NCBI RefSeq assembly: GCF_019669965.1
Contig: NZ_AP019781.1
Coordinates: 2,047,092 to 2,111,091, forward strand
Reading direction: 5' to 3'
Source of the DNA: Methanoculleus chikugoensis
GTDB taxonomy: Archaea; Halobacteriota; Methanomicrobia; Methanomicrobiales; Methanoculleaceae
Length of the DNA: 64,000 nt
The notes under the pieces are model-generated. The model saw nothing but the letters and a program-made list of their open reading frames with translations, ran no database searches and was not told the origin of the DNA. The first letter of the stretch is position 1. Each line of letters opens with the position of its first letter. Below, piece by piece: positions 13,544-39,353 of the stretch. A program made the translations under genes and the position numbers.

Positions 13544-13647
13544 TGGGATTTTTCGCGCCTCCGGGTGCGGGCCGCCGTCCGGAGGATACGGGGTTCGGAG
13601 GATGGATCCGGCTCGCTTTCCCTGTCGGCAGAACCTATCGCTTTCTC

Positions 13648-13940
13648 CCTGTAGCCCCCACCCTGTCTCCACCTTGTACACGGGCACTTGTAACCCCCAC
13701 CCCGCCCGGCCTTCGGCCTCCTCCCCCGCCCACGAGGGGCGGGGGCAGTGCGTGGCGATAGCCAGTGGGAAGCCGTGTTACGGGAGGGGAACCAGGATTA
13801 CACCCATTCCAGTATCTCCCCAAGCAGTGGACTGTGGGGATATCACCATTGGGGGCGGGGCCGACGGGGAGGGGGTTCACCCCCTCCCCTGTCTCCATTG
13901 CGTAAGGCTCTTCTTTGTAGCCCTCAACCCACCTGCGCTT
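13648..13940. repeat. Dispersed GC-rich non-coding repeat, copy 1
   Basis: This intergenic stretch closely resembles 37558-37914. Shared blocks include GGGGCGGGGGCAGTGCGTGG, GGGAAGCCGTG, the run around CAGTGGAC, a GGGG-x-GGGG block before GACGGGGAG, and CCCTCCCCTGTCTC followed by ATTGCGTAAGG. Differences are substitutions and indels, and no shared reading frame is conserved, so it is a dispersed repeat or structured RNA and not a coding duplication. It fills most of the 489-base gap between the histidine kinase and the NusA-like gene. No other gene is seen in the gap. Confidence 0.75.
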
Positions 13941-14032
13941 CGCACTCCATCCCCCCGATGCCCGGGGTACTCAGATATATATCCCGCGAGCGACTATATC
14001 ATACCGCATCATTCCCATTGGGGACTGCTTCA

Positions 14033-25175: not shown

Positions 25176-25297
25176 GTCTCGCGCGAAGCCGCGAAGTGCG
25201 ACGGTTCGTAGAACCGGAGCATGAGAAGCCATCAGGCTTCGAAGGGGAGTTGCTCTCAGATAAACCGAACTTCGCGTTCTTCGCGGCTTCGCGTGAG
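25176..25297. repeat. Inverted-repeat element, copy A
   Basis: The element opens with GTCTCGCGCGAAGCCGCGAA (25176) and closes with the near reverse complement CTTCGCGGCTTCGCGTGAG (25279-25297). About 120 bases lie in total. The same ends bound copies at 25322-25446 and 39046-39160. It contains the internal motif GAGAAGCCATCAGGCTTCGA. No coding potential is convincing. Confidence 0.65.
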
Positions 25298-37399: not shown

Positions 37400-37557
37400 A
37401 GAACGGCATATTCTGTAGTCGTAACCCTGCCCGGGGGGCGGGGCGATGGGAAACCGTGTGCGATTCTTCGCCAGCGTCTCCCAGCCGGTGAACCAGGGGT
37501 GTCGCCACCGGGGGTGGTGGGGCATCCTCCCTCCTCTGCCTTTACCTATCCGCGATT
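37400..37557. repeat. Partial, diverged copy of the dispersed GC-rich repeat
   Basis: Blocks such as GGCGATGGGAAACCGTG, TCTTCGCCAGCGTCTC, GTGAACCAGGGGTGTCGCCA and GGGGGTGGTGGGG parallel the second half of the copy that follows at 37558 in the same order. It looks like a tandem, partly decayed copy. No protein-coding gene is supported here. Confidence 0.5.
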
Positions 37558-37914
37558 CCTGTAGCCCCCACCCCGCCCGCGCTTCGCGCTCCTCAACCGC
37601 ACCTGCGGCGCTCGAACTCCTGCCGTTCCGGCAGTCGTTCCCCGCCCGCAAGGGGCGGGGGCAGTGCGTGGGGATAGCCGGCGGGAAGCCGTGCACGGTT
37701 CTTCCCCGGGTTCTCACCCATGCAGTGGACCATGGGGGTATCGCCACTGGGGGAGGGGCTGACGGGGAGTGCGATGTTCCGTAGGAACGGAGCTCGAGCA
37801 CCCGAAGGGTGCGGAGTGCGAGCGCAGCGAGCTTGAGCACCGTTAGGTGCGAGGGGGGGCGTGCCCCCTCCCCTGTCTCTATTGCGTAAGGTCCTCCTTT
37901 GTAGCCCCCACCCA
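37558..37914. repeat. Dispersed GC-rich non-coding repeat, copy 2
   Basis: This matches 13648-13940 over most of its length, in the same order: GTAGCCCCCACCC, GGGGCGGGGGCAGTGCGTGG, GGGAAGCCGTG, CAGTGGACCATGGGGGTATC, CCCTCCCCTGTCTC and ATTGCGTAAGG, ending GTAGCCCCCACCCA. An extra hairpin-rich insert of about 75 bases (37785-37855, with CCCGAAGGGTGCGGA) is absent from copy 1. Together with the partial copy it fills the 690-base gap between the CBS operon and dys. Confidence 0.75.
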
Positions 37915-38024
37915 CTCCTCCCGACCCGCCACAATGACAGCCCAAAAACCTCCATCCGCCCCCTCCATCGGGTCGGCACCAACCATTAATAGGCCACAAT
38001 CCGAAATGATATCACGATATTTCC

Positions 38025-39045: not shown

Positions 39046-39160
39046 GTCTCACGCGAAGAACGCGAAGTCTGGTGTCTGAGTGCTTGCTTCGCGTTCTTCG
39101 CACCTACGGTGTTCAAGCTCCTGCCCTTCGGCCCATCGCTCTTCGCGGCTTCGCGTGCGA
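39046..39160. repeat. Inverted-repeat element, copy C
   Basis: It opens with GTCTCACGCGAAGAACGCGA at 39046 and closes with CTTCGCGGCTTCGCGTGCGA at 39141-39160, the same ends as copies A and B near 25.2-25.4 kb. The interior is different (GCTTCGCGTTCTTCGCACC). It lies in the 357-base gap between dys and tRNA-Ser; I see no other gene in that gap. Confidence 0.6.
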
Positions 39161-39353
39161 CAGCGGTATAGGAACGTGCATGGAACCCATTTGTATTGAC
39201 TCTCGCGGAGACCGGGACCGCCCGCCACCCCGGCCTCAGACCACCACAATTATTATTAATCAATGGGGCCAAAATTAGTAGGCACAAGTCATAGAATGCT
39301 GTGTCTGGAGCAGCACATCGCGTGTTGCGAGTGTCGAAAGATGCGAAGTTCTA

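Follow-up and report, generated by a model that had tools for sequence, protein, structure and literature searches.

Intrastrand triplex motifs are bacterial repeats without an agreed role. In the reference account (PMC4666352), the BoxC, PIT, and TM motifs of Escherichia coli and other bacteria consist of a purine arm, a loop, a second purine arm, a second loop, and a pyrimidine arm, with arms of 6 to 15 nt, loops of 1 to 6 nt, the triplets AAT, GGC, and TAT, and at most one mismatch. They use G·G-C and A,T·A-T triplets, are intergenic, and have surroundings that are hypervariable between strains; an earlier PIT study, as cited there, reported that the motifs were not significantly correlated with how the associated genes are oriented. 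REP/BIME elements (GTAG and CGTC families) are dispersed extragenic palindromes, often mosaic, located mainly between convergent or unidirectional genes, according to PMC3733652, in which an excess of G-T pairing is cited in favor of an RNA function of REPs. Prokaryotic MITEs, finally, are non-coding, carry terminal inverted repeats, and lack a transposase gene.

The repeat described here resembles all three. It was examined in a window of 64,000 nucleotides, which is the whole stretch analyzed (positions 2047092 to 2111091 of the Methanoculleus chikugoensis genome; 2,622,259 bp, one contig), and was then followed into other genomes. The repeat shares with BoxC/PIT/TM the succession of arms and loops, the triplets, the intergenic location, and the hypervariable surroundings. 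Unlike in those motifs, however, the triplex motif forms one part of a longer palindromic unit that also contains boxes and end modules, the Methanoculleus repeat shows tandem arrays, core inversion, and nested cassettes, and, in contrast to PIT, it is biased toward convergent genes in its own genome. Like REP/BIME elements, it is dispersed, extragenic, palindromic, often mosaic, and found mainly between convergent or unidirectional genes; its unit is much longer (box-to-box cores of 113 to 367 bp versus a palindromic unit of 20 to 40 bp), its own genome has no Y1 (RAYT-type) gene, unlike the case of REP/BIME elements mobilized by RAYT, and no G-T pairing excess is seen. Like MITEs, it is non-coding and has terminal inverted repeats without a transposase gene, but neither a target duplication nor a parent element was found. 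The family resembles REP/MITE elements yet fails those of their defining tests that were run. Structurally it is unusual, and it is neither a gene nor an established RNA; most probably it is a non-coding, DNA-level, REP/MITE-like repeat with a BoxC/PIT-type triplex motif as its basis.

Anatomy, copy number, and spread of the repeat

A sequence-only reading had described three copies in the window that share ordered blocks, the first of them at 13648 to 13940. The copies are here called A (positions 13640 to 13945), B (37555 to 37915), and B' (37400 to 37557). The sharing of blocks holds for A and B (best HSP, 90 bits) and for B and B' (44 bits), scores that 0 of 60 Markov-1 shuffles equal in either case, but not for A and B' on their own, the relation of which is undetectable (21 bits, reached by 6 of 60 shuffles). 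The similarity is not confined to G/C runs, as the mixed-sequence motif GGACCGTGGNNNTATCGCC (at most one mismatch) occurs 34 times in the own genome and its reversed control not once. No conserved reading frame was noticed among the copies, coding potential being judged by eye. The neighbors of the window copies are ordinary, namely, PAS/HATPase histidine kinase-like, KH-domain, and CBS-domain proteins and deoxyhypusine synthase. In the window, the copies belong to the permuted, tandem kind of unit, in which the b half precedes the spacer and the a half. Their parts are as follows:

13664 to 13692, plus strand: copy A, linker TGTCTCCACC...TTGTA; a similar linker is present in other copies
13693 to 13718, plus strand: copy A, ACCCCCACCCCGCCC block and small hairpin P4 GGCCTTCGGCC (GCGCTTCGCGC in some other copies)
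13723 to 13745, plus strand: copy A, G/C hairpin P5
13746 to 13784, plus strand: copy A, inverted box TGGCGATA and end module b (GCCAGTGGGAAGCCGTG...)
13818 to 13848, plus strand: copy A, end module a (CAGTGGACTGTGG) and box TATCACCA
13851 to 13889, plus strand: copy A, predicted intrastrand purine-motif triplex (BoxC/PIT rule), arms 10, loops 5 and 4, one mismatch
13890 to 13933, plus strand: copy A, second linker, followed by the beginning of another unit, which is truncated
37414 to 37559, plus strand: copy B', degenerate unit with a detectable relation to B only
37560 to 37589, plus strand: copy B, C-block and P4 GCGCTTCGCGC
37595 to 37641, plus strand: copy B, nested two-hairpin cassette in P5; the same cassette position is used in other copies
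37641 to 37698, plus strand: copy B, P5, box (here TGGGGATA), and end module b
37717 to 37746, plus strand: copy B, end module a and box TATCGCCA
37749 to 37873, plus strand: copy B, triplex-type block interrupted by a pair of nested cassettes (37770 to 37816 and 37817 to 37852), no motif with arms of at least 9
37874 to 37903, plus strand: copy B, linker

The majority of the own-genome copies that were read are a-core-b units. Such a unit is a long imperfect palindrome in which end modules a and b surround the inverted boxes TATCGCCA...TGGCGATA, which in turn enclose C/G hairpins. It starts with end module a (CAGTGGACCGTGGGGG), box TATCGCCA, the block GGGGGTGGGGCTGACGGGGAGGGGG..CCCCCTCCCC, and the linker TGTCTCTACC...CTGTA and continues with ACCCCCACCCCGCCC, P4, P5, CAGTGCG, box TGGCGATA, and end module b (GCCAGTGGAAAGCCGTGCATGG). 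Two-hairpin cassettes of ∼46 bp nest inside the core and at the boxes. The hairpins and the block order noticed earlier do recur; as a refinement, other copies show a permuted order of the blocks and an inverted core.

Other repeats were seen in the window as well. An inverted pair of pieces (25176 to 25224 and 39113 to 39161) is similar to a dispersed repeat of the CTCACGCGAAGCCGCGAAG type, and direct repeats of 60 to 167 nt, 63 to 90% alike, lie between 54066 and 60011, apparently inside coding sequence.

The own 2.62-Mb genome contains 79 BLAST matches to the copy A block (E ≤ 0.001). With copies A and B as BLAST queries, 46 places of the family were found there, and a motif search adds seven candidate ends, so that the repetition reported from the window is genuine but the count of three was a large underestimate. 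All 25 Methanoculleus genomes match copy B by BLASTN, compared with 0 of 16 genomes of other genera (41 genomes in total). A covariance model of the repeat, built from 35 cores, matches 15/15 Methanoculleus genomes among 80 genomes of the order, with between 2 and at least 39 matches each, up to 39 per genome being scored. The same model weakly matches 7 of the 65 non-Methanoculleus genomes of the order (E values of 8e-6 to 5e-4). In the weak matches that were read in two genomes of family f2 (G070 and G089) and two of family f3 (G051 and G085), the anatomy is the same although the sequence differs. The box, either TATCGCCA-like or TATCCTCA, precedes a G/C block of the mirror-plus-hairpin kind. 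G070 has two units of this build ∼290 bp apart, and one locus of G065 also has the triplex block. The repeat is therefore typical of the genus in its sequence, as had been proposed, but its anatomy is also present in other families of the order. In short, the repeat family is real, non-coding, high-copy, and genus-wide, and units of the same anatomy are found again in two more families of the order.

Several matches stand apart from this picture. A Methanoculleus-like repeat in a genome of another family (L438 in G084) sits on a contig that contains N and resembles a Methanoculleus-type contig; contamination or misassembly is possible, and the match was discounted. Three genomes of family f3 (G051, G056, and G085) have 12 to 29 weak model matches each, many of them ∼67 bp long and some found on both strands. 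The ones that were read, short palindromes of box and triplex motif (TATCCTCA...TGAGGATA), perhaps form a separate abundant family. Six bacterial matches among the 80 listed of at least 120 in a scan of named genomes have no model match and were taken as chance. Spread on phages or plasmids was rejected: one 196-bp element had no match in phage or plasmid collections, and the three viral contigs matched by the a-end pattern (the b-side pattern matched none) lack a model match. The repeat was not found described in the open-access literature searched, and neither the available text of the M. marisnigri genome paper (PMC3035220) nor that of a satellite survey (PMC6749651) mentions it.

The intrastrand triplex motif

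The window was scanned with the published intrastrand rule, as given in PMC4666352, with loops relaxed to 8. Exactly one triplex motif with arms of at least 9 was found in the 64 kb, at 13851 to 13889 in copy A, and none in six Markov-1 windows. With arms of 10, loops of 5 and 4, and one mismatch, this motif falls within the unrelaxed BoxC/PIT/TM rule. Copy B has no motif with arms of at least 9, its arm being split by cassettes. When arms of at least 8 and loops of at most 8 were accepted, the motif was identified in 57 of 101 cores and in none of 101 shuffled cores, leaving 44 of the 101 without it, a point against the triplex reading. By eye, a third strand of the GGCGG type is present in 8 of 35 aligned cores; other cores, copy B included, are split by cassettes. 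In the other families, all 23 distinct places read contain a triplex motif, compared with 1 of 92 Markov-1 versions (both strands), the 23 having been preselected by a model that itself contains the triplex block.

The composition of the arms bears on what kind of pairing is conserved. Box-anchored motifs of distinct sequence number 174, a sample that is not unbiased because the search pattern presupposes G runs on either side of the center, orthologous copies are counted separately, and the loci of the other families were found by the model. The center of the third strand is A or T in 169 of these motifs (A in 98, T in 71) and C in 5, with no all-G case, and the hairpin pair opposite this center is A-T in 165 and A-G in 9; the mismatched A-G center is seen in 9 of the 13 motifs from genome G023. 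The mirror arms are equal in 166 of the 174, in the form 4-4 in 132/140 Methanoculleus motifs and 3-3 in 30/34 motifs of the other two families. The purine triplex rule predicts that A-T is faced by A or T, whereas T would be the sole expectation if the pairing were with the downstream CCCCCACCCC block. The covariation found is that of the three arms of a predicted DNA triplex motif, across three families.

Remodeling, possible mobility, and genomic position

The 116 cores collected are distinct sequences, with orthologues counted separately, and 101 of them could be oriented. Read core-forward, these 101 are flanked by ends a,b in 41 cases, b,a in 15, b,b in 7, and a,a in 3, with an end unrecognized in 35. 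At site 1 (30 orthologous loci, read by eye), the element is present in 18 loci and absent from 11, and a contig end cuts one. Four of the full cores at this site are forward and five inverted, between the same ends and genes; short symmetric forms also occur, and one locus (L128) is reduced to a bare minimal hairpin. Site 2, too, has the core in both orientations. In some species that lack the element, the same convergent spacer is occupied by the CTCACGCGAAGCCGCGAAG-type dispersed repeat (L129, L136, and L137). At site A of the window, 5 of 30 loci carry the element; none was seen in 24, and one is masked by N. At this site, one core (L062, genome G042) contains seven tandem 46-bp two-hairpin cassettes, of which the own-genome copy A has none; this array is a recent local expansion. 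Tandem arrays of whole units with a period of 266 to 267 bp and 4 to 5 copies were read at two places in G023, where L294 and L302 are satellite-like arrays of this period between genes.

Mobility of the repeat is plausible, and the best-surviving alternative, although unlikely, is that the repeat is a MITE, that is, a non-autonomous IS derivative moved by a transposase that recognizes the TATCGCCA-containing ends. The terminal inverted repeats, the lack of coding sequence, the dispersed copies, and the patchiness at orthologous sites such as site A all favor it. A signal of target duplication is absent, however, from 56 non-redundant elements, in which the mean longest shared word is 5.39, versus 5.54 after re-pairing. 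At 19 loci the partner box lies at most ∼420 bases from the a-end, too close for a transposase gene inside those 19 elements, and no transposase was noticed in the 150 bases adjoining ends without a script-found partner, which is weak evidence. The partner rule paired 209 of 287 ends, 180 of them within 700 bp; 32 ends are cut by locus ends, and many of the 75 left over are, by eye, permuted units or pattern misses. No autonomous copy was seen among the ends resolved. Nor was a precise empty site found: two genomes that are ∼93 to 94% alike around site A have 513 versus 3 bp there, a difference that takes in more than the element. A Y1 transposase as the driver was rejected because it is absent from the own genome (PF01797, 0 matches and 0 candidates); 7 of 35 genomes of the genus have a PF01797 match. 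The earlier suggestion of a non-autonomous mobile element thus keeps the inverted ends, the high copy number, and the patchiness in its favor, but no signal of target duplication, no autonomous copy among the ends resolved, and no Y1 gene in the own genome was found.

The preferred reading, a DNA-level repeat built on a triplex motif, also draws on where the copies lie. A script placed the 46 places of the own genome in 25 convergent, 18 tandem, and 2 divergent gene pairs, with one unresolved that is convergent by eye, giving 26, 18, and 2. Because a circular chromosome is expected to have as many convergent as divergent pairs, finding at most 2 divergent among 28 has a binomial P of 1.5e-6. 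Gene gaps of at least 60 bp in the window, by a crude gene map, are 5 convergent, 16 tandem, and 10 divergent (n = 31). Twelve other genomes, with each place counted once, have 30 convergent, 20 tandem, and 10 divergent places among the 60 resolved of 76; convergent outnumber divergent places by 10 to 1 in G019, but there is no clear bias in G041 (5 to 4) or G023 (4 to 3). With cdc6 as the marker of the origin, and with neighboring model matches merged by hand in G023 and G041, the cdc6-distal half of the chromosome holds 35/46 elements in G000, 31/37 in G019, 20/25 in G023, and 28/46 in G041 (Kolmogorov-Smirnov [KS] p values for distance from cdc6 of 4.6e-4, 2.4e-5, 1.4e-3, and 0.17, respectively). 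The elements are depleted near cdc6 in three of the four genomes, and G041 is without clear bias.

These distributions raise the prospect of a selected chromosome-organizing element, in which the repeat would be a barrier between convergent genes and the TATCGCCA box would be read by a topoisomerase, a nucleoid protein, or a fork-pausing factor. Besides the 26 to 2 excess of convergent places in the own genome and the depletion near cdc6, the six innermost box pairs are identical in 35/35 aligned cores, and box plus triplex recurs in another family with an altered box (TATCCTCA). On the other hand, many orthologous spacers have no element (as in the 11 of 30 loci at site 1), so that a given copy is not indispensable; the orientation bias could be mere promoter avoidance; and the convergent bias is weak in two other genomes (G041 and G023). 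We consider this explanation doubtful.

RNA-level tests and the DNA-structure reading

The other suggestion of the sequence-only reading, a structured RNA family typical of the genus, acting as a cis element or as a small RNA, is highly improbable. It draws on the recurrence of hairpins among the copies, on their position mostly downstream of genes, where they may be co-transcribed, and on copy B, which folds better than all 100 of its shuffles (z = −2.87). For copy A, however, 14 of 100 shuffles fold as well or better (z = −1.12). RNAalifold assigns the 35 aligned cores a covariation term of −0.22, and both-side changes occur at 2 of 33 pairs, both in P4; the covariation is near zero. Among the 1,886 hairpin pairs of the 101 cores, G-U types number 29 and A-C types 45. 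This lack of a G-U excess counts against an RNA because RNA-level selection on the strand read should favor G-U over A-C. Neither strand is fixed, given that the core is found either way round at orthologous sites. Rfam searches at gathering scores returned two tRNAs and no match to the repeat, and permissive scans of both regions gave only matches far below gathering. An intron remnant, suggested by a resemblance to domain V of group II introns, was rejected, as no intron family appeared in the Rfam scans.

We return, therefore, to the non-coding repeat built on a triplex motif. Its unit runs from end module a and box TATCGCCA through the purine-motif triplex block, the linker, and the C/G hairpins to box TGGCGATA and end module b. 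The conserved feature would be a DNA fold, a hairpin or cruciform with an intrastrand G·G-C and A,T·A-T triplex beside the box, which is predicted to form in the cell. Copies may be spread and remodeled mainly by recombination or by replication template switching at palindromes, with an unseen transposase possibly contributing to the spread. They might persist because 3' spacers tolerate a structure of this kind or even benefit from it, converging transcription or replication being stalled or isolated there.

A bolder version of this reading can be put forward as a speculation that we hold to be rather unlikely: an archaeal DNA-structure element common to several families of Methanomicrobiales, in which a conserved box stands beside an intrastrand purine triplex whose three arms are selected at once. 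Such an element, lying between converging genes at a distance from the replication origin, would serve as a barrier or a topological sink, and it would need no dedicated transposase to rewrite itself through inversion of its core and insertion of cassettes.

In the present family, the three predicted triplex arms change together between genera, beside a fixed box and with a gene-orientation bias in the own genome. With these properties, the question of whether such a structure forms and acts in the cell becomes approachable by comparison and by simple mutations. The findings also caution against annotating such repeats as RNA. At the Methanoculleus sites that were read, the repeat accounts for the hypervariable intergenic DNA.
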